DNA of 64,000 nucleotides from Pegea sp. RAD2-039 (taxonomy: Eukaryota; Chordata; Thaliacea; Salpida; Salpidae), in the NCBI GenBank assembly GCA_034620365.1, contig JAQGEQ010000110.1, positions 434,001-498,000 of the forward strand, written 5' to 3'. Numbering within the stretch: the first letter of the stretch is position 1; each line of letters begins with the position of its first letter. Shown here in pieces: positions 2,341-60,034 of this stretch. The notes under the pieces were generated by a model that was given only the letters and a program-made list of their open reading frames with translations, was not told where the DNA came from and did not search any database. Both the position numbers and the translations under genes were made by a program.

Positions 2341-3159
2341 TTAAGTAGCAAGTTTGATCTTTGAGAATAGCCTCATTGCATTTTCTGATGTGATTGTAAC
2401 AACATCTTCAACAGACATCTTTTTTATCTTAGCTACTTCTTCAGCACATATTCTAATATTTGAAGGAACATTTCTATCAAATTTAGTGGGTCCTAATGCA
2501 GGAGAATCAGTCTCTAATAACATATGAGAAATAGGAATTGCTTTAACTAACTTTTGTTTTTGTTCACTACGTATAACACATGGTGGTATTGAAAAATAAA
2601 ATCCGTTTTTAACCCCTTCAAGAGCATAATAAGGTCTACCATCAAATGCATGCAAGACTGCTTTATCAACTTTTTCTTCTTTAAGAAGCTCAACAACAGG
2701 TCTTCCAGCAGATCTTGAATGCACATTAATAGGCAAATCAAACTGTTTAGCTATTTGGATTTGATTTTTCAAAACTTTTCTTTGATTATCCTTATCATCA
2801 TCTGATTTTATATACCTAGGCGTAAAATCTAAACCAACTTCCCCAATTCCAACAACTGCATCAGAATAATTCTTTACTAATGAACTAAAATTTAAAAGAT
2901 CATCAGGACAAGAACTTCTATTTAAGTTACTTTCTTTTATCTGTTGAACAGGATGAATTCCTATACATGGAAATAGAAAATCTTTATGTTGAGAACAAAT
3001 CTCTAAAGTTTTTTCAAATTCATCTTGAAATTCTGTAACAACAATAATAGCAGAGACATTATTATCTTTTGCTTTTTTGATAACTTCTTCCCTATCACCA
3101 TCAAAATCAGAAGCAGTTAAGTGGCAATGACAATCAATAAAACCAGCAAAGTTCTTCAT
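2341..3159 (-). CDS. TATDN3: TatD-family metal-dependent deoxyribonuclease, TATDN3 type
   Basis: A single-exon frame of 272 residues, against 273 in human TATDN3. TatD proteins are TIM-barrel, metal-dependent hydrolases acting on DNA ends. The metal ligands are visible in order: DCHCHL near residue 9 (His-X-His), GEVGLDF near residue 106 (Glu), NVHSRSAGRP near residue 145 (His), LHAFDGRP near residue 168 (His) and LETDSPALGP near residue 215 (Asp). DGRP and SIPP mark the TATDN3 branch. The start at MKNF puts the first metal motif at the usual distance from the N terminus. The absence of introns is notable in this intron-rich neighbourhood, yet the frame is intact, so it appears functional. 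Confidence 0.93.
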   Translation of the reverse strand: MKNFAGFIDCHCHLTASDFDGDREEVIKKAKDNNVSAIIVVTEFQDEFEKTLEICSQHKDFLFPCIGIHPVQQIKESNLNRSSCPDDLLNFSSLVKNYSDAVVGIGEVGLDFTPRYIKSDDDKDNQRKVLKNQIQIAKQFDLPINVHSRSAGRPVVELLKEEKVDKAVLHAFDGRPYYALEGVKNGFYFSIPPCVIRSEQKQKLVKAIPISHMLLETDSPALGPTKFDRNVPSNIRICAEEVAKIKKMSVEDVVTITSENAMRLFSKIKLAT

Positions 3160-5440
3160 TACTCCAAATTAGTTTATTTATCAAAATTCTAAACCTCCAA
3201 CACAAAGAAGGCTTTATTTTGTAACCCAATATTATTTTGCTAACTTTAGAATACCAATACTTAAATTATAAAATAATATTTATGTCTAACTGTTGAATCT
3301 AGCCAGCAAGTTATGCAATGATTCAGTTTAAAATCAATGTATATATAAATAAATAAGATTAAAATAAATATAACAATAAGCAAAATGGAAAAATACAAAA
3401 AATGATCTATGTCTTTTGTCAAATGACAAAATTTTATATCTCTCCTGGCACTCTCTTTCTCATTTATTGTAAAAAATATAAAATAGCCAGGAAACTATTA
3501 CATAATCAAAAAATATAATAAAAACTGTAGTATTACATAAAATTATAGTTATTGAAAAGTTATTGAAGCTAATAATAAAGGGCGTTATCAGTATATTTTT
3601 TGCCTGTTTGATTTGATTTGTCATTTGCAAAAGAGTAGACAAAAATTTCAATGAAATGTTCAATATTCGGCATTCGAAGTGCTCTTTTTGCATGTCAGAA
3701 AATTGTATGTCAAATATTTTTTTATATACAAAAAATCATGCATCTTAATTGAATACACTTTCAATCAAAGTATTTTTTAAGTAAAACGCTTCTATAAGCA
3801 CAATTAATAATAATTAATTAGGTCAACTTTCAAAACCTTTTGAATTGATTTCGAATTTCAGTAAAGCTGGTAGCCTTTATTCTTAAAATTTATTGGTTGT
3901 TAACAAAATATACAAAACTGCATCAACATTATTAGAGTTTCTAATTATGTACTCATGTACTAAAAAAAATCCGTTTTAAGTAATAAAAAGACTCTAATGA
4001 AGAAACTTGAAGTACATTTTGTTTTAAATATACCTAAAATTAGGAATATTTTACCTAATGGTTAGCTCAGCTAAAAACTCCTAACAAAAAGAGAAATATT
4101 TTAAATTCAATTTTTTTTAATGTGCTGATTCGGCTGATAGCAGCCATGAATCAGGGTAGAAGATGTAAAATGAGCCGTAGATAGATAGATTTGATCATTG
4201 GGATTTCCTGAGAATTTTAGATAAATGTTATTTAATTATAAACGCAAGAACAAAATATTATATTAAGTTTCGATTAATCTTATCTAAATGCTTTTCTGAT
4301 CCAACAATAGTATGTTTAAAGGATATTTTTTTCTATTTTCTACTGACTATTTGTTTAAAGATGGTTGTTTCAAAATTAACTACAAGACTTTCACTTTAGA
4401 TGAGTTTTATAAGAAAACCTTTTAGATATTGATGAACTAGTAGTATCTGTTGAGTGAATGAATACTATTTTGTAATGCTTAGCAGCAAAACACAGAAGCT
4501 ATAATCGGATATACTATGAACAGTGATCACAATTTAAATCTTTTTGGAAAATCAGAGCAGCTTTATCACCACTTTTTAGATCATATGTAAAATATATTGA
4601 CTACAGTGTTACTCGAATGTCAATTTTTCTCAAATTTTTATTTGAGAAAACCCCAAGGATAGCGAGTCTGTTATTACCAATTTTGTTCATAAATTTTGTT
4701 TCTCTATGTTATACCTTCAGCTTTGAAAAGTACCTAAATAAAATAATCTCAAGTGAAGACACTGTTCACACTGAAATGTATATGTAATCACTTCTCTGTT
4801 TCTATTTTGGGGCAATCTATTTTATTAAAAACTTGACGTTTGCTTCGATTACCTTTCTTCAATATTAAAAAAATACTTGTCTTACAGAACTTTCTAGGGT
4901 TAAACCATATTTCTGTTTAACGAAACAAAAGTTATCAGTTGAAGTTTACTTTTTATATAATATCATTGCAAACCTGAAAGTAATGAGACTGAGAACAAGA
5001 TAAACCTACCACTGATCTACGGAACATATACCTTGTAATTGTAAATACAGATATACATTTAGCAATTGACAAGTTTAGATCAAAAACCACAATTTTCTAT
5101 TAATAAGTTTTGGAGAAATCTCTCCAAATTCAACTATTTGTAAGATGTGGACATAAACAGAAATATTACCAGAAGAAAACGAAACAAATTAGATACAAAG
5201 AACTTTATAAAGAAAATTAATCTAAAAATAAAAGATGGTTTTATGCAATTGTGTATACTGAAACTCTTAATTTGAAGCAAACTTAAAAGCATATTAAAAG
5301 ATTAAAATAAATTGACCAAAGCACTGCATAATATATGAATTATCTTCACAACAAATGGTTCCTGTTTTTTTTAGAAAAACCCCTTACCCACCAGTATTTA
5401 GCTATAATCAAAATAAAGTAGGAAATGTTTTAATTTGCAA
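3160..5440. other. Intergenic, no convincing gene
   Basis: AT-rich spacer between TATDN3 and TMED2. A 77-codon open frame at 3693-3460 (-) is rich in I, F and N and looks like chance. The only structure I can point to is a short hairpin at 4125-4154. Confidence 0.6.
4125..4154. repeat. Short inverted repeat (hairpin)
   Basis: Arms CTGATTC and GAATCAG enclose a second paired segment, GGCTG with CAGCC, around a 4-base loop. This gives about 12 paired bases with a small bulge. It is followed by GATA-type repeats (tagatagatag). No T-run terminator or RNA gene signature accompanies it. Confidence 0.5.
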
Positions 5441-35526: not shown

Positions 35527-36195
35527 TCAGAAACTGAAGTTAACAAAACAAGAATCACAAACACGAACAGGTTTATCAGATTGTTCTTTCAAAAGTAGTT
35601 TCTTAGTTGAACAAGATCCACAAACCACAAAACCACATTTTCGACAGTGATGTTTTCTTTGAAGAGGTGTAAATCTTGTAGAACTACACCTCATACAAAC
35701 CGTAGCATCTGAATCAGGAACCCAAGTTGGTGCCGTTTCAACATCTCCTGATGAACCAGAGTTTTCACGAAGTTTTTCAATACATCGATTCATATGAGTC
35801 ATCCATTCTATTTTCTCAGTTTTAGTTTGAGCATAAACTGCAAATGATTTTACTGGTGATGATATTAGCCAGCCATATCTTAATTCGTTGTTATCGTCAT
35901 CAAAAATCCCTATATTTCTGCTTTCTGGAACATTTTCAATTTTCATTTTGGTCAATTCCATCACGTGTTGATTCTTGAAGACTTTTTTGTGGATGACAAT
36001 AGTACCATAAACCAAAAGATCGTTAAATAAAAAAAACTGTCGCTGCTTAGGTTTTTTTCGACACAACTTTGTCAGAACACCTTCACCAACTAGCACACGA
36101 CCTTTAGCAGTTAAGGGGACACCAGAGGTTCCAAAACATTGCTGGACATAGTTGATTCGTTGTTCATTGACAGAAGAGTTTTTCAACTGGTCCAT
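35527..36195 (-). CDS. PLEKHF2: Phafin: PH and FYVE domain protein
   Basis: A single-exon frame of 222 residues (human PLEKHF2 249, PLEKHF1 279). A PH domain covers about residues 33-135: RVLVGEGVLTKLCRKKPKQR, FFLFNDLLVYG, KSFAVYA and EKIEWM. A FYVE zinc finger covers about 155-220: WVPDSDATVCMRC, the RKHHCRKCG core (R(R/K)HHCRxCG motif), CGSC and PVRVCDSCF, so all eight zinc ligands are present. Phafins bind PI3P and PI(3,5)P2 on endosomes and lysosomes and act in endosome fusion, autophagy and apoptosis. It lacks the acidic C-terminal tail of vertebrate PLEKHF2. An invertebrate single-copy gene is likely co-orthologous to both human paralogues, so the symbol is approximate. Confidence 0.92.
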   Translation of the reverse strand: MDQLKNSSVNEQRINYVQQCFGTSGVPLTAKGRVLVGEGVLTKLCRKKPKQRQFFLFNDLLVYGTIVIHKKVFKNQHVMELTKMKIENVPESRNIGIFDDDNNELRYGWLISSPVKSFAVYAQTKTEKIEWMTHMNRCIEKLRENSGSSGDVETAPTWVPDSDATVCMRCSSTRFTPLQRKHHCRKCGFVVCGSCSTKKLLLKEQSDKPVRVCDSCFVNFSF

Positions 36196-36789
36196 TACAC
36201 TGTGAGCCCCTCTGAAACTACTTGTAAAAAATAAACAAATGAAAATAAAAACTTAGAAAAAGTAAGTTTTTAGAAAAATGTTATAAATTACTTTTGATAA
36301 TTATTCAATTGTTTATTTATTATTAAAATCATATAGTTATTTAGTTATCAAACTTATCTAAAATTTATTTATAGAATTAGTTATAATGACAAACCTTAAG
36401 TAATCACTTCTCCAAAAATGATTTTTAAAGTAAAATATAAAAGACTTTTTAATATCTGTAAATATAGAAAGATGTTTTAAGCTTGATTATTAGACATAGA
36501 AACTATTTTCGTTCAGTTAATGTAATGTAAGAAAGTATTAAACTATACCAACCATAATTTGAACATATAAAAAGAACTAAAACTCAACTAAATTTTAATT
36601 TATCAATATTTAAAATTCAATTTAAATGAAAATCACACTATTATTTTTATCATAAATATAAAAAATGTGAAATCAAAATAAAAATTAAATATTTCAGTTA
36701 TATAATTACATTTACTAAACATTATTGACAAGATGTTCTAAACTTAAAGTTCTGTTACATCTGCAAATAACTTTCTCAAGTTACTAAAT
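36196..36789. other. Intergenic between PLEKHF and PSMA1
   Basis: An AT-rich spacer of about 0.6 kb between two same-strand genes. It should hold the PLEKHF promoter and PSMA1 3' UTR. No distinct element is visible. Confidence 0.6.
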
Positions 36790-37560
36790 CTACTCATGTT
36801 CCATTTCTGCTTCAGCTTCTGCCTCAACAACTGGTGCTTGGGCATCTTTTTCAATCTTCTTTATATATTCTTCAGCTTTATCATCATCAAATATTTCAAC
36901 ATCTTTATCTTTTCCAACAACAGTTATAGTGCAAACTCTTGAAGATAGGTTTTGGTCTGCTGGTAAGGTTTCAGCTAAAGCCATTAACCCATGCTTTATA
37001 AGATCATCTAAATTACAAGCCCCAAACTTTTCATAATTTCTTTCCAAGTATGTTCTAGCACTCTGAGATCGTGAACCTATGGCCATTGCTTTACAGTTGA
37101 AATAGTTTGCAGATGGACAAGTTTGAAATATATGTGGACCTTTAGAGTCATAGCCTGCTACCAAAATTCCAACACCAAATGGTCTTCTTCCATATCTTTG
37201 AGTTGGCATTTGCAACTTATCACCAAGAACACCAACCATTCGAGAAACAGGAAGTTTTTCAGAGTAAGTGAATAAATGTTGAAGACATTCAGTTCGCATG
37301 AATCTACTCAATGATCTAGCATCAGATGTAAGGCCAGATATTGATACCACAATATGAGGAGCAATCTTTTCAACTTTTTTCTGCGGTGAAATTAAATCAG
37401 AGCTACTTCTTTTTAAAGCCACAAGTACAGCATGTGTTTTGGATTTTAATCCAACAGTAGCAGAACCTTGCTTAACAGCTTCCATTGCATATTCAATTTG
37501 ATGAATACGACCTTGAGGACTCCATATGGTAACATCATTATCATACTGGTTTCTAAACAT
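36790..37560 (-). CDS. PSMA1: 20S proteasome subunit alpha type-1 (alpha 6)
   Basis: An intronless frame of 256 residues; human PSMA1 has 263. The N terminus [20 protein letters not shown] with [11 protein letters not shown] is the alpha-subunit signature that forms the gate of the core particle. Further matches are [57 protein letters not shown] and [15 protein letters not shown] in the form [15 protein letters not shown]. As an alpha subunit it lacks the catalytic N-terminal threonine. The C-terminal tail is acidic, as in the family. The start is certain from near-identity at residue 1. Like TATDN3 and PLEKHF it has no introns here. Confidence 0.97.
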
Positions 37561-40500
37561 TTTGATAACCTAATGCTTCACAATTCACTATAAAATAATA
37601 ATTTTTATCACAAAAAAATATTTCAGATATAAAATGAAAATATTAATAAAATTATTAAAGCTTTTAATAACAGTTCTATCATAAATATAAAAGTTCAAAA
37701 ACCAAAATCTAAAACCAAAATAACTTTGCCTACTAATATACTTAACTATACTTTAACAAACTCAAATAAACTACTGATAAAGTTTTTATAAAATTTGATA
37801 ATTTTATAAAGTTAAGATATTTTATGATCTAAAAGAGTAGGAACACCTAAGTATACTTAGAATAAAAATTATAAACAATTTTAATAATGTTAAAATATTC
37901 AACATCTATGAATTAAATGAAAAAACAGTATAATAATCAGTACATAAATAAGAATATATAAATACTAATAATATTAATAATAATAATGTATAAATCAATA
38001 CATAAATTATAAAACTTTTTATAAAAGCTAAGTTAGTTTATCTAGTTTATTCGTTGAATATAATTCTAAAATAATCTATGAAATAAGTTATTTTTAATAA
38101 CTTATAGATTAATTCTTATGTATTTAAAAGAATTCAAACTATATTTATATGAAAGTATAAAAACTTCAATCAAATTCTAAAGATATGCAAAACATGTTTT
38201 AGCTATATTTTATAAGAACTTTAAAAATACACAATTTATATAATTCTAAAATAAATAAATTTAATGAGCTATACCAAAATGTTTAATTATTGTTTTTGAT
38301 TATTGTATAGATCAAAGCTATTTCACATAAAAAATGTAAAGACTTCAAATAAACGAGTTTAAATTATTTTTATTTCATTATACATTTTAGTTAAGATAAA
38401 CACCACAGATTCAAGTATACATAACCAACCAATAATAAACTACTAACATAAAGTTTCAACTTTTTTTTACATATTTGTGAATAATAGTTTCAAAAAAAGT
38501 CTTATAGTTATGATATCATAAAATAAGGTATTATAAACTAAAAGATTGTAAAATTAATAATTCAACCTATAACAAATTTTTAATAAAATCAAAAATAATT
38601 AAATATTTTAAAATTAAATTATAAGGCATTCTTAAATAAGCTAAAAGCGCACGACATTATTGATATAAGCCGAAAGAGCTATATCATATTTACTAAATTG
38701 GGTTTTATCATATAATCAATATTAGAAAGTTATTAGTGTTAAGTAAAATAATGAGCAAATTGACGATAATTAAACGGTTACTAATATCGCTATTAAAATA
38801 ACAAAAATAACTAATTTATAAATCTCTTTTTTGTGTAGTTATGTGACAATAAAGCTAAAATTTCATATCAACAGCTACCTTAAAAATGTTTAAAACAAAA
38901 ACGTTTAATTAATATATCTTGAGACCTAAAAATAAAACTGTATATTATGGACCGATTGTCTGAACAAAAATCTTTGCTGAGCGTAGCCTTCCGGATAACT
39001 GAAGATGTAGATGACTATCGTTGAGATCTACAAACCTGAACAGCGCTGTGTTTAGCAAAAAAAAACTTGCTTACTTTTGTAGTATAATCACCATAAGATC
39101 TTTTTTGAATAATAATTATTTACCTATATTCGTTTAATTAGATATCAAAACAAGTTTCTAGCGAGTCAAATGAAGGTAGAAACTTTATACAACAAACTTA
39201 TAACAAGTATTTTGCCACATATCAATATTAGGACTAACTAATAACTATGCCAAATCAATTCCTAACATACAACTAAACTTAAATATTAGCTTAAACCTTT
39301 TTTTGTCTTTGTTCTCACTTTTGATTATCGACATAAAATAAATTTATTTATTAATTCAAACTAATTGATTGCTAACTTTTTTTCACTATTTATAGCTTTT
39401 CAAAAATGATTAGTAGCTAATAACTTATGTTTAAGTTTACAATTTAAATAGATTAAAAAGTTACAAAGCTTTTCCTTTAGTAATTTTAATTTCGAAGAAA
39501 ATTTAAAAAGTACTAAAACGTAATTTTCAAAAACTTAATAGGTAACGTAAAAACATTGCAATAAGTCATTAGTTTCTTATTTTTACTTTAATATATGCTA
39601 ATTCGAATTTAAAAAATACTTTATCAATTTAACACATAATTAGTAAAATGTATAAAAGAGTACAAAAATACTGTTTTTTTTTTAACTTTTTTGATCTAAG
39701 TTTATATTTAATTGTTAGATTTCGATTTATTTAGAGTTTGAAAATAAAAATAGGCATAGCTGTTTTATAAAACTACTATTTCGTAAACTCCAGGTAAAAA
39801 CATAATACAAGACTTCGATTGATAACCTACTGAGTTTATCTTATTTTTCATATTTCGGTTGGTTACTAATGTCTAAAAACAGTTGTATATTAAAAAAATA
39901 AAGACTGGATAAAATGTAGTGTGATATTGATTAACGTAACAGTGGTATATGTTGCATCTATCTTTGAATGATGCACAGCCAATTAAAAATTTTTAAATGA
40001 TGAATTTTTTCATCGAGTAAATATAAATGCTTATACATAACCCGAAATAGTTCTAACCCCATACAAAAAGTCATTTTAATCTTTAATTTATTTTCATATC
40101 TTTTTTTTAATAGTTAAGATTATAATTCCTTAAGGCAAGCTGAATTTACAAACATTAAGTTATTTTATTCATATAAACTTGAATGTGACAACTAAACAAA
40201 AAGCTTAAATGGTTTTATTTTGTTTTGCGCTAAAAAGTAATCAAAAATATTCATTCCTTACTAGGTCTAATCGAACAATCTAGAGCTTTTGGGTATGATA
40301 TTTCCTAAGCTTAATTTGTTTGCTATTTATGTCAATTTATATGGTATTCTATTATCAGCTCTTGTATTTTGTTTTTATATATTAAATTTATTGCTCTTAC
40401 CTAGGACTTGGAATTACTTTTTGAATCACTTCAATCGTAAAAACAGTTAGATAATTATTAAATGTATTGATAAATATTTAAATATATTTTATTGACAAAT

Positions 40501-50638: not shown

Positions 50639-53187
50639 ATGCGAATTATTGCTTTGACGTTTATGTTTGTAGTATTAACAAACATATTTTGTTATGCTCA
50701 AAGAAACGAAGATGAAGAAGAAGATGAAGAGAAGCAACATCCGCTTGGACATATGATGCCGTTAGGCACAAGCGGTGACTTTTGGAAGATTGAAGAAATT
50801 TCAGAGTTTCCAGACCCAGTTGAGTTCTTTGACAAATATGTGAAGCCTTCAAGACCAGTTGTGTTCAGAGGAATGGCTAAACAGTTTCCATCTTTTGAAA
50901 ACTTTAAAAACGACCAATATTTGAAGTAAGATTTAAAATATGTTTGAAACAATCTTCAATTTATCCAAAAACCTTTTTAAGAGTTGTGTTTTATGAAGAG
51001 GACTAATATTTTTCTTAAATCTTCTTTAATCAATTAATAGTTTAGCTTTTATTTTCTACCCATAAAGATCAAAATATGGAAAGTGGAAAATTTTTTATGA
51101 GTATAATAAAAGAGAAGATAGTGAACATAACGGGAAAAAAACCTCCTTTAAAAAATTTCTTGATCTCTATAACAAGAAACCAGTTTATCTGATATCTGAT
51201 GTCATAAAGCCTACACCTTTAACAAGTCAGTAAACTTCTATTTTTATACATTCTACCATCAAAGAAATCGCAGTTAAAACATCAACCCTTCTGGCTATAA
51301 TTTATATTTTTATTTTACTTTGGGTTAGACCTGGTTTCTCTGATACTATAAGTTTCATTGAACTGCTTGATGATGGCATATAATCTCACTGAAACAATTT
51401 TGACGTAAAATATTTCTTTATTTACAATGATACTACCTTTAAAACAGCTTAAACCCATTTTTTCACTTCAAACTTTTAGACTTAAAAAGTAACATCGTGA
51501 TAATTAATGGAACTGAATTAAATCAATAATGAAGTTTATTTTTAATTTGGTGGCACAAATCACTTATGATGTATAGGTTTAAGCTTATGGTTTGTAATGA
51601 AGCAATAATAACTAACAAATACTGACTCTTCATCGCTAAAACGCTGAGTCATATTATTCTGAGTTATTCTGATAGTTAAAGAAAATGTTTTTGTGATTTT
51701 TAGAAGAGATCTTTTTGCCTAAACCTATACTTTGTGATGAAATATTAAAAAGGTTTGAGACTTGCATTTTGTGGATATCAGGTGGAGGGAGTAAATCCAC
51801 TTTTCATTCAGACTCATTCGAAAACATTCACTGTGTTTATGATGGTACAAAGCAATTTGTACTCGCACATAAGGTTTAAAGTTTAAAGTAACGTTGAATG
51901 AATCTAATAGTGGTCTTGATAGAATCACGAAGAAACAATCAGAGCTGCTACAGATGGAGTTTATGCTAATTTAAATGTTGATGAAGTCGACTTTAATAGA
52001 TTTCCAACTTTGGCAAAGACATCGTGGTATAAAGCAAAAGTAGAAGCAGGTGACTGCTTGTATATACCATTTAGGTAAGCATTCACAAAATTCAATCAAC
52101 TGCAAGTTGCTAATTTAAAGGATAACTTTAATCTGTACAATTTTAAGAGTTTATCAATGTATTTATTACAGCTGGTTACATCAGGTAAGGTCTGATAAAG
52201 GCCGCAATTTAGCAATTAATTATTGGTGGAGTCAATTACTAGTAATACCAAATATAGATGAATGCCGAAAACAATGTAAAGAGCTTGTTGGAAGAGCAAC
52301 AGTTAATGATTATCCAAGAAGAAATGAAACTGAAAGACAAAGGTTATTAAAAAATTATTCTGTACTTAATTTATTTATTTTCTATCAAATTTTGCTGCAC
52401 ATTTTACTACTGTAGTCTTATGCTAGTCTTACTGAAGTCTTATGCTTTTAAAGATCTTTGTTTATTTCGAACTTTGAGAAAGAGAAAGGTCCGATAACAT
52501 TTGATCGATTTCATGATGTTATAGCAGCAGAAGACGCGTTGATACCATTGAACGAGGTATTAAGGTTTGATTATTCAAACTAATCAATATTCATATATAT
52601 ATTTTACTGTTTTGATGTTGAGGCTGAGATAATTACTAACTACAAAATACCAACAATATGAAAGAGTTATCGTATTAAGTTCAAAAAGTTATAACTCTAA
52701 AGTTTGCTTTGGTCATTTTGAAAGCTTCAAATTCATATAGTGAAATACCGCCCACTTTAAAGTGGGTTGTTTTTGAATTTTAGTCTTACCAATTTTACTT
52801 TAAAACTTAAAAAAGTGTCATTTTTTTGTCTTAAATTACAAAATTTAAATCATTGTTTTTAAATCAACAACTTTTTATATTTTAGATACGGTATGTTGTA
52901 AAAAACTTTGCTTCTACTAAAAAAATAATTTATTAATTTGTTTCACTTGATTTAAGGAAAATACTTAATTTTGAGTTTTAACTACTAAGTTGTGTAAATA
53001 TTTTTTACAGACAAAGCAAGTTTTTTCTAGAATTGATAAAGACAATGACAATCTGATATCTATCCGAGATATGTACCTTACCGATTTAGAAGTCTTCAAA
53101 CCGCTCATAAAAATACCAGCTCAAAAATCAGATGACGTTAATGAAACTTACAATTATGAAGAAGTTGACTCAAAAGATGAGTTGTAA
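50639..53187 (+). CDS. ER-lumenal JmjC-domain protein with EF-hand and KDEL tail
   Basis: Seven exons (50639-50925, 51068-51225, 51704-51873, 51923-52074, 52172-52342, 52454-52556, 53011-53187) join in frame to 405 residues. A signal peptide (MRIIALTFMFVVLTNIFCYA) and an acidic stretch lead into a cupin-type JmjC fold. The iron-binding facial triad is visible: TFHSDSFENIHCVYDG gives HxD and SWLHQVRS gives the distal His. The cosubstrate lysine is probably in KQFVLAHK. After the JmjC come a helical segment and a canonical EF-hand loop, DKDNDNLISIRD, with an acidic linker. The protein ends in KDEL, so it should be retained in the ER lumen. JmjC enzymes of this type are 2-oxoglutarate-dependent hydroxylases. 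The nearest lumenal human relative by topology is JMJD8, which lacks the EF-hand. Substrate unknown. Confidence 0.88.
52751..52766. repeat. 16-bp perfect palindrome
   Basis: CCCACTTTAAAGTGGG in the last intron of the JmjC gene, a GC-richer point in AT-rich sequence. It could be the tip of a small foldback element; no longer arms are visible. Confidence 0.6.
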
Positions 53188-58200: not shown

Positions 58201-58711
58201 ATATGGAAACCAGCTATAAATCAACCTAGTATATCGAATTTTAAAATAAATAATTGGTATTGTGTCTTAGAAATACTCTTAATGGTAAGAAAATTTGTTC
58301 TTAGGAGTCCTAAAGTTGAATGACACAGATTTATAAAAAATTGAAATTTATTTAAAAACGAAAAGCTTGTGTCAATTATATGGATCAATTACTGAATTAA
58401 GCTATTCAGTATAGCCATCGGCAATACTTTTAGTATTTATAGAAAACTGCCCGTACAACTTACACTAACTTTATATTTTTTAAAATTTTACAGAAAAGGC
58501 TTAAAAAGAGAGTTCAGCTTTTTCTAATAACAGTTAATTTTTGGTAGATAAAATTCAGCTTTTTATAAGTGGAAAAGTTTGCTTTTAATTCTACTGTTTA
58601 TTACAATTTGTTTGATGTTTTTTAATGGTTTAATTATTAATTTTTATCAAACAAAAACTTTGTTGTTTAAATTTGTTATTCAAACAGCAGTATATTTTAC
58701 ATCATTTTAAA
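55300..58711. other. Long AT-rich intergenic region
   Basis: Promoter regions of two divergent genes should lie at the ends. Weak candidates only: a 69-codon frame on minus at 57740-57531 (LINFLNHTECFDHISQIIET), and a plus-strand exon-like piece after ttttttcag at about 58060 (SWCRNVKFYKQAQLLEQVSE, FVKKH, stop). Neither has partners I can join. Confidence 0.45.
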
Positions 58712-60034
58712 ATGTCAAAAAATATTTCATTGCATCCAATGCTAGTCAGACATAAAGACCCTTTGTCTGGTGCAGAATGTGTTTACCCTAAAAGCCATAC
58801 ACTTGAACAATTTTCATCTGCATTAAAATATACCGCAAAACCATCAGATATTTTTGTTTGCTCTTTTCCGAAAAGTGGAACTACTTGGCTTCAGTATATC
58901 GTGTGGCAAATAGTTCACAAAGGGAATGACTTTCCAGAGACAAAGACCTTACGAAAAGTCATGCCAATGCTTGAGTTTGATGGTAAAGAAGTTACTGAAG
59001 CTGTTAACACTATGGGTTTTCCTAGCATCATCAAAACTCATTTTCCTCGCCACCTTGTTCCTTACAATAAAGTAGCTAAATATGTTTATATTGCACGAAA
59101 TCCTAAAGATGTAATTGTCTCCTACTTGTTTCATTGTCGGGGATTTCCAGGTTATGAAGCAGCTGATCTTAAAATAGAAGATATCTTTGAAGCTTTTGCT
59201 TATGGTGAAATTGAATTTGGAAATCATTTAGAACATATTGCTGAATGGCATCGAGCAAAAAATGAAGAAAATGTTTTGTTTGTGTTGTATGAAGCTTTAA
59301 AGAAAAACCCTGAGAAGGAGATATTAAAGATTGCTTCATTTTTAGGCCATCAGTATGAAGAAAATCTGCTTCAAGATAACAAAAAGCTTCTTCATTTTAT
59401 TACTCAAAAAACAAGTTTTTCATCAATGAGTAAAGAAAACGATGCTAAATGGGTTAGAAAACTTTATGAAATTTTATTTAATATGTTTTTAAAACTATTG
59501 ACAATAAAAGATTTAAGTAAGATGTAATTCGCTAGATTAAAAACTTTTTAGTTGTTTCAATTTAAGATTCTGTAAATTAATGATCAAATCTAAAAATCAA
59601 ATCAAAATAAAGCTTGCTAAGATTGAGTTAGAAAATTACCAGTTTCCAGTTTGTAGATTAACCATTTGGTTTACTCACAAAGATTAAACCTTTAATAATT
59701 TGCACCAGTTGTTAACATTCTTTACGAAACTTATCTACACTTATCTACACTTATTTAAACAATCTAAATTAGATAATTGCTCTATATTTTATATCAGTTC
59801 AAGTTTCAGCTACTTAGAAACATTAATACTAACTGTGTTTTAAATATCTCAAGAATGTTTGTGTTGCAGGTGACAAGCAAACGAAGAGGAACTTCATTTG
59901 TTAGAAAAGGTGTTGTTGGAGATTATGTAAATTATCTAACGAAAGAACAAATTACAATTCTAGATGATCAACTCAAAGAAAAAGGAAAAAAGTTGGGTAT
60001 AAGTGAACTATGGACTGAATTTGAAGCTGTTTGA
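58712..60034 (+). CDS. Cytosolic sulfotransferase (SULT family)
   Basis: Two exons, 58712-59452 and 59870-60034, join in phase 0 to 301 residues, the usual SULT length. The PAPS-binding motifs are complete: the 5'-phosphosulfate loop FVCSFPKSGTTWLQYI near residue 49, the 3'-phosphate motif YIARNPKDVIVSYLFH near residue 129, and the C-terminal RKGVVGDYVNYLT. The catalytic histidine sits in KTHFPRHLVPY. SULTs transfer sulfate from PAPS to hydroxyl groups of small molecules such as steroids, catechols or xenobiotics. The sequence style (FGNHLEHIAEWHRAKNEENV) recalls invertebrate, especially chelicerate-type, SULT expansions; the substrate cannot be told. I start at MSKN, 13 codons inside the longest frame, because of its better context and family-like N terminus. 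Reading through the donor would replace the essential C-terminal motif. Confidence 0.9.

Follow-up and report, generated by a model that had tools for sequence, protein, structure and literature searches.

Introduction

Enzymes with a JmjC domain are known mostly from the nucleus and the cytosol. Among them JMJD5, JMJD7, TYW5 and FIH are hydroxylases; JMJD5 is an arginyl C3 hydroxylase, and JMJD7 is the (3S)-lysyl hydroxylase of DRG1/2. JMJD8 carries a signal peptide and N-glycosylation and is, by its authors' account, the first JmjC protein found in the lumen of the endoplasmic reticulum (ER); they place it in a cluster with JMJD7, HSPBAP1, JMJD5, TYW5 and HIF1AN (PMC5684140). A His replaces the iron-binding Asp in JMJD8, and on this ground the same authors suspect that it may be neither a hydroxylase nor a demethylase (PMC5684140); a later paper reports that it demethylates AKT1 (PMC9820096). 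P4H-TM is described as an ER 2-oxoglutarate oxygenase with EF-hands, a calcium Kd of 23 µM and an EF-domain the role of which is not fully understood (PMC7948501). Here we discuss a gene that joins elements of these systems. It lies in a stretch of 64,000 nucleotides (hereafter, the window) from the thaliacean Pegea sp. RAD2-039, positions 434,001 to 498,000 of contig JAQGEQ010000110.1 (referred to as C236). The window has a G+C content of 27.3% and the genome a size of 105.7 Mb.

The protein encoded by this gene combines a signal-peptide-like N-terminus, a JmjC domain with an intact HxD...H iron triad, an EF-hand loop and a C-terminal KDEL. The triad, the loop, the KDEL and their conservation in a family of paralogues are read directly in the sequence. 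The protein is probably a soluble Fe(II)/2-oxoglutarate protein hydroxylase that resides in the ER lumen, belongs to the Cupin_8 group of JMJD5, JMJD7, TYW5 and FIH, and has in its EF-hand a low-affinity or structural site for calcium. A lumenal JmjC oxygenase with an EF-hand had been proposed in a preliminary description of the window, and it still appears to be the best reading, now supported by the paralogues. The preliminary description also spoke of an under-described branch. This fits the open-access literature, in which, as far as its text was accessible, the combination of JmjC, EF-hand and KDEL or ER location was not found; subscription journals, preprints and protein databases were outside the scope of the search, and orthologues may sit unnamed in public proteomes. 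Moreover, the accessible text of a Jumonji review has no mention of EF-hand, endoplasmic or calcium (PMC4233403), and that of a paper on the evolution of ER calcium has no mention of JmjC, jumonji, cupin, 2OGFeDO, 2-oxoglutarate or hydroxylase (PMC7016017).

Gene model and sequence features

The gene occupies 50639-53187 on the + strand and comprises seven exons that encode 405 amino acids, as given by spliced alignment with models of its paralogues as guides. The features are as follows.

50639..50925, + strand: exon 1, with the signal-peptide-like N-terminus, an acidic stretch, a GHMMPLG motif and the first part of the JmjC region; the frame stays open as far as the donor AA/gtaag
50639..50698, + strand: signal-peptide-like stretch, codons 1-20, MRIIALTFMFVVLTNIFCYA (hydropathy, by eye)
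51068..51225, + strand: exon 2, N-terminal part of the JmjC domain, including Y136, a putative 2-oxoglutarate ligand (JMJD5 alignment)
51704..51873, + strand: exon 3, with the HxD iron motif and K198
51805..51813, + strand: H183-S184-D185, containing the first two predicted iron ligands
51850..51852, + strand: K198, 15 residues after H183, a putative ligand of the 2-oxoglutarate carboxylate (aligned with the JMJD5 Lys)
51923..52074, + strand: exon 4, JmjC domain
52172..52342, + strand: exon 5, which encodes the third predicted iron ligand and completes the JmjC domain (guided splicing)
52179..52181, + strand: H259, third predicted iron ligand
52454..52556, + strand: exon 6, linker and pre-EF-hand stretch, possibly a degenerate partner hand (guided splicing)
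53011..53187, + strand: exon 7, with the EF-hand, an acidic tail, KDEL and stop; common to the paralogues, in the same frame
53035..53070, + strand: EF-hand loop D356-D367, DKDNDNLISIRD (PROSITE-type pattern)
53173..53184, + strand: C-terminal KDEL retrieval signal, directly before the stop

All six junctions of this model are GT-AG. The same six introns were returned by each of the five guides tried (C236b, C236a, C246, C28a and C125, named by the contigs of the paralogues), and the exon 1 donor was identical with all of them. With C236b as guide the splicing score was 892; the background was 38-45 in five further 3.2-kb pieces taken from the window and 42 on the reverse complement. A hand-joined model of 403 amino acids had placed intron 5 at 52362-52478; it was replaced, since all five guides gave 52343-52453. 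The guides had themselves been built with the 403-residue model and are not fully independent of it, yet they overruled it at this intron. The two forms differ only around residues 314-321. The shorter form, or material built with it, was used in the genome search, the searches of the Protein Data Bank (PDB), the paralogue models, the first tree, the dN/dS estimates and the loop-pattern scan. The Pfam scan, the alignment and the tree were redone with the 405-residue form, and the PDB profile search was run with the 403-residue form only.

The exon structure can be regarded as established by homology. Intron phases are 2,1,0,2,2,0 in the window gene and in C236a, and the last six are the same in C236b, C246 and C75; in C28a they are 2,1,0,2,2,1. 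The length of 405 residues, which the preliminary description had given, was reproduced by the five paralogue guides, and the signal-like N-terminus, the triad, the canonical EF-hand loop and the KDEL are all present in one protein where that description had put them. Its assumption that exon 7 is part of the gene and is read in this frame agrees with the paralogues, which share exon 7 up to the stop. Likewise, the signal-like stretch and the beginning of the JmjC region share a single open frame within exon 1, in line with the joining of the two in that description.

The JmjC domain and its predicted ligands

The protein matches Cupin_8 (PF13621) over residues 61-277 with an E value of 9.1e-37 and 127.8 bits (cut-off 27.4), and up to E 1 the only Pfam matches are to Cupin_8, JmjC_2 and EF-hand models. 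A scan against NCBIfam gave no match. Y136, S180 (H-3), N189 (H+6) and K198 (H+15) align with JMJD5 residues, and from this alignment we take them to be ligands of 2-oxoglutarate. Six residue spellings that were looked for in a paper on the 2-oxoglutarate site of JMJD5 do not occur there (PMC9712658). The HxD...H triad is kept in 10 of the 11 loci of the family (see below). All ten triad-bearing loci also have Lys at H+15; at H-3 nine have Ser and one Thr, and eight have Asn at H+6.

A profile built from seven family members was compared with proteins of known structure. Among the best 60 of the 198 matches, JMJD5 (1.4e-26) is followed by JMJD7 (4.3e-19), TYW5 (C2orf60; 7.2e-15) and FIH (4.3e-13). 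We regard the protein as a variant of the JmjC-only hydroxylases rather than a new kind of enzyme.

Features of the ER type

Residues 1-20 are hydrophobic after one Arg and end in CYA/Q, with a possible cleavage before Q21 (judged by eye and by hydropathy). The paralogue models also have hydrophobic N-termini, with the start codon of C246 not found. The signal-like stretch is followed by the acidic stretch and the GHMMPLG motif, in which H38, P41 and G43 are invariant in seven family members. The window protein has three N-glycosylation sequons (N307, N346 and N391). In addition, four Cys are invariant in the seven aligned members: C159, C192, C250 and C287. At the columns of C159, C192 and C250, JMJD5 has residues other than Cys; of these three columns, JMJD7 has Cys at that of C192 only. 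The invariant Cys would be compatible with an oxidising compartment, which is not proof of disulfides.

A family of paralogues in the same genome

Searching the genome with the window protein gave 40 stretches at E values up to 0.01, which fall in 11 family loci and one weak stretch on C1, the latter a TYW5-like gene and not a family member. The loci are the window gene itself (W), two each at C28 and C236, and one each at C246, C75, C125, C278, C26 and C76. C236a and C236b lie about 89 kb from the window gene, outside the window. Five loci end in KDEL (W, C236a, C236b, C125 and C278) and four in KEEL (C28a, C28b, C246 and C75); the last exon of C278 was read as an open frame and does not come from the spliced aligner. 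Because the paralogues share the architecture, the reading as a lumenal oxygenase is stronger than it would be from one gene, and the existence of an 11-locus family in the same genome makes the combination of features look real and not a reading error.

C236a and C236b differ by a dS of 0.82 and a dN of 0.25, consistent with an older pair under overall purifying selection. C28a and C28b (L021, C28:333500-340500) are near-identical neighbours with a dS of 0.027, both ending in KEEL, and represent a recent tandem duplication.

In a tree of 16 rows, a branch with support 100/99 separates the 10 family rows from the others. The outside rows were two bacterial or phage rows and, from this genome, genes that resemble JMJD7, TYW5, KDM8 and HSPBAP1 (the names are our reading of their sequences). 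The alignments and trees omit C28b, a near-copy of C28a, and the trees omit L030 and L031 as well; one spliced alignment to L030 passed through a stop and was rejected. Since the outside rows have no EF-hand tail, the tree was repeated on the JmjC domain alone with the 405-residue protein; support for the family branch was 100/98, and the family fell on one side in 98% of 200 bootstrap trees. The order of the outside rows is unsafe because of their long branches. Judged from these trees, which take in neither JMJD8 nor FIH, the family is not simply one of the JMJD7, KDM8/JMJD5, TYW5 or HSPBAP1 orthologue groups. For eukaryotes the scope was this genome, and the trees are silent on how widely the family occurs.

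Beyond eukaryotes, the seven-member profile recovered one relative from 66 pattern matches in viral contigs (L032; the other frames of its contig resemble phage frames), while a three-member profile gave none from 92 pattern matches there. Prokaryote genomes yielded one relative from 126 pattern matches (L033, in a Methylovulum bin). L032 and L033 are distant JmjC-type proteins with 27% and 33% identity over about 95 and 85 residues, respectively, and neither is of help in dating the EF-hand.

The EF-hand

The EF-hand, which is argued from the loop pattern and from the family, is the weakest part of the finding. The loop fits a PROSITE-type pattern. By chance this pattern arose in 39 of 20,000 sequences obtained by shuffling the tail, and in 49 of 20,000 when the whole 403-residue protein was shuffled; the match is unchanged in the 405-residue form. 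Among the paralogues, C236b comes closest to the Pfam cut-off (E 2.3e-5; 24.0 bits vs 25.4), C236a, C246 and C125 have E values below 0.001, and C75, which has lost the triad, reaches 0.0063. The seven-member profile aligns with calmodulin (3.2e-5) along some 80 positions, which cover the exon 6 region and the EF-hand; for radial spoke protein 7 the value is 3e-8, although none of the matching stretches passes by itself. Exon 6 may hold a degenerate partner hand, which we put forward as a suggestion. W, C236a, C246 and C75 have Asp at loop position 12, and C236b and C125 have Glu there. Asp rather than Glu at this position would suit a weaker calcium site. The preliminary description called the enzyme possibly calcium-regulated; a single canonical loop that ends in Asp would be equally compatible with a switch and with a site that is weak or structural. 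At C26 (L028, C26:697500-703000), where the exon model is unsettled, two EF-hand-like stretches are seen, RIDTNKDDFIEIKEV and LDLNMDGILDEEEM.

A number of observations weigh against a lumenal hydroxylase with a calcium-binding EF-hand, and most of them concern the hand. The window protein remains below the Pfam cut-offs for EF-hand_6 (E 0.042; 14.0 bits vs 25) and EF-hand_1 (E 0.061; 13.3 bits vs 25.4). None of the six paralogues scanned reaches the EF-hand cut-off, and C28a has no EF-hand match up to E 1. The loop pattern is found in only 5 of 11 models (W, C236a, C236b, C246 and C26), those of C278 and C76 being incomplete and that of C26 unsettled. Position 12 is Asn in C28a and C28b, and the hand of C278 is degenerate. 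Exon 7 folded alone and without relatives, which is a poor test, gave one helix (residues 2-28, mean pLDDT 67) and no helix-loop-helix. The tail evolves fast, with a dN of 0.53 and a saturated dS of 3.7 between the tails of C236a and C236b, and the deficit of dN between C28a and C28b is weak (dN 0.016, dS 0.027, few changes). As for the other features, no KDEL-type end was seen in the examined DNA of C26 or C76, the 3′ exon models of which are unsettled, and in C75 (L024, C75:241500-246000) Arg, Glu and Tyr align with the iron ligands. C75 retains the signal-peptide-like start, the EF-hand region and KEEL despite the loss of the triad, and from its sequence we regard it as a natural pseudoenzyme or a decaying copy.

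Proposed function and alternatives

For the lumenal hydroxylase, we infer the ER location, the binding of iron, 2-oxoglutarate and calcium, protein hydroxylation and its regulation in the following way. The signal peptide would take the protein into the ER, and the KDEL end would return it from the Golgi. H183, D185 and H259 would bind the iron, and K198, together with S180, N189 and Y136, the 2-oxoglutarate. The enzyme would then use O2 to hydroxylate a residue of secretory or membrane proteins during their folding. The C-terminal EF-hand, perhaps paired with the degenerate partner in exon 6, would bind lumenal calcium, and it might either stabilise the enzyme at high calcium or lower its activity when the stores empty. 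The uneven EF-hand evidence has lowered our confidence in this explanation slightly, to a level at which we still call it probable.

It may be that the EF-hand of this lumenal JmjC hydroxylase is structural only, with calcium always bound in the ER and catalysis unregulated. This is a narrower version of the explanation just given and does not exclude it, and we consider it a serious contender that falls just short of probable. It is favoured by the presence of one pattern-fitting, Asp-ending loop and by the uneven conservation of the hand across the paralogues; the recognisable hand in several of them, including the triad-less C75, speaks against it. P4H-TM can be argued both ways, as its Kd of 23 µM implies saturation in the resting ER, yet the saturation could respond to calcium release (PMC7948501). 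The replaced iron ligands of C75, in which the rest is kept, also raise the question of whether the proteins are enzymes at all. A binding or chaperone-like protein has been suspected in the case of JMJD8, with its His for Asp (PMC5684140), although demethylase activity was later reported for it (PMC9820096). In the present family 10 of 11 loci retain the triad and the Lys at H+15, a pattern difficult to account for unless the proteins are catalytic, and we find a non-enzymatic function unlikely.

Many JmjC enzymes are lysine or arginine demethylases, and the protein belongs to the JmjC class. Its best matches of known structure, however, are JMJD5, JMJD7, TYW5 and FIH, the KDM2-like loci (Cupin_8 model) are not among the 40 stretches matched by the window protein, and the apparent ER location makes histones unlikely substrates; a demethylase is in our view very improbable. 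Even less credit is due to the idea that the gene model joins JmjC exons and an EF-hand/KDEL exon from different genes. The exon joins do rest on homology, an intron of 454 bases precedes exon 7, and the window model went into the building of the guides. Against this, five guides gave identical joins, and in paralogues from other contigs the equivalent exons are likewise followed by exon 7, which keeps its frame and ends in KDEL or KEEL.

A family of lumenal hydroxylases with intact catalytic residues, an ER retrieval signal and a calcium hand would point to hydroxylation in the secretory pathway by a system other than the collagen, EGF-domain and P4H-TM enzymes. With it one could test directly whether an oxygen-dependent modification is tuned by ER calcium, and the triad-less C75 is a natural, ready-made control. 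More tentatively, and with our expectation clearly on the doubtful side, the approximately 11 genes might constitute an unnamed clade of catalytically intact ER-lumenal JmjC hydroxylases, with KDEL and a C-terminal calcium hand, whose modification of secretory proteins depends on oxygen as well as on ER calcium, with at least one pseudoenzyme paralogue as a possible regulator or decoy.

Other genes

In the window, four further long open frames were noted by eye: a cytosolic sulfotransferase-like frame at 58634-59524 on the + strand and, on the - strand, frames resembling a proteasome alpha subunit (36793-37569), a PH-FYVE protein (35530-36252) and a TatD-type nuclease (2344-3168). Scanning the window with Rfam and tRNA models gave zero matches. 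Elsewhere in the genome, at L034, L035, L036 and L037 (C257, C44, C83 and C18), there are long open frames in which cysteine clusters resembling CXXC fingers come after a JmjC-like domain; the frame of L035 has an F-box/leucine-rich-like end. Judged by eye, they look like an expanded KDM2-type family. L004 and L005 (C260:402572-406039 and 410055-413522) are KDM8-like, have equal scores, lie about 7.5 kb apart and are possibly a recent duplication.

Comparison with known systems

JMJD5/KDM8 is the best structural match of the family profile (within the best 60 of 198 matches) and shares the aligned HxD...H, Ser at H-3, Asn at H+6 and Lys at H+15. To our knowledge, JMJD5 has no signal peptide, EF-hand or KDEL, and the genome's own KDM8-like gene (L004) is kept apart from the family by the tree. 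JMJD7 is the top single-sequence PDB match of the window protein (403-residue form; 5.7e-12); as far as we know it is cytosolic and has neither EF-hand nor KDEL, and the JMJD7-like gene of this genome (L001) also stands apart from the family in the tree. The CREC proteins (calumenin, reticulocalbin) resemble the window protein in combining low-affinity EF-hands with an ER retrieval end, there of the HDEL type, but they have no enzyme domain.

P4H-TM, as an ER-lumenal 2-oxoglutarate oxygenase with EF-hands, provides a precedent for the pairing that is predicted for the window protein, and among working systems it is the nearest analogy. It differs in being a prolyl 4-hydroxylase and not a JmjC protein, in its membrane anchor and in having two EF-hands before the catalytic domain, whereas the EF-hand of the window protein comes after it. 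No prolyl 4-hydroxylase catalytic domain is found among the Pfam matches of the window protein up to E 1, and the resemblance is likely to be convergent.

JMJD8 is described as a JmjC-only lumenal protein with a signal peptide (PMC5684140); for the window protein the lumenal location is predicted. The preliminary description had contrasted the two by the EF-hand. That difference stands, in that the main text of the JMJD8 paper mentions neither KDEL nor EF-hand (PMC5684140), but a larger one concerns the iron site, as the window protein retains D185 and an intact triad where JMJD8 has His. The window protein, with its KDEL and EF-hand in addition, is set apart here from JMJD8 by the published description of the latter. 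In the published example of a lumenal JmjC protein, the iron site is altered and the activity disputed; the family described here keeps the catalytic residues.

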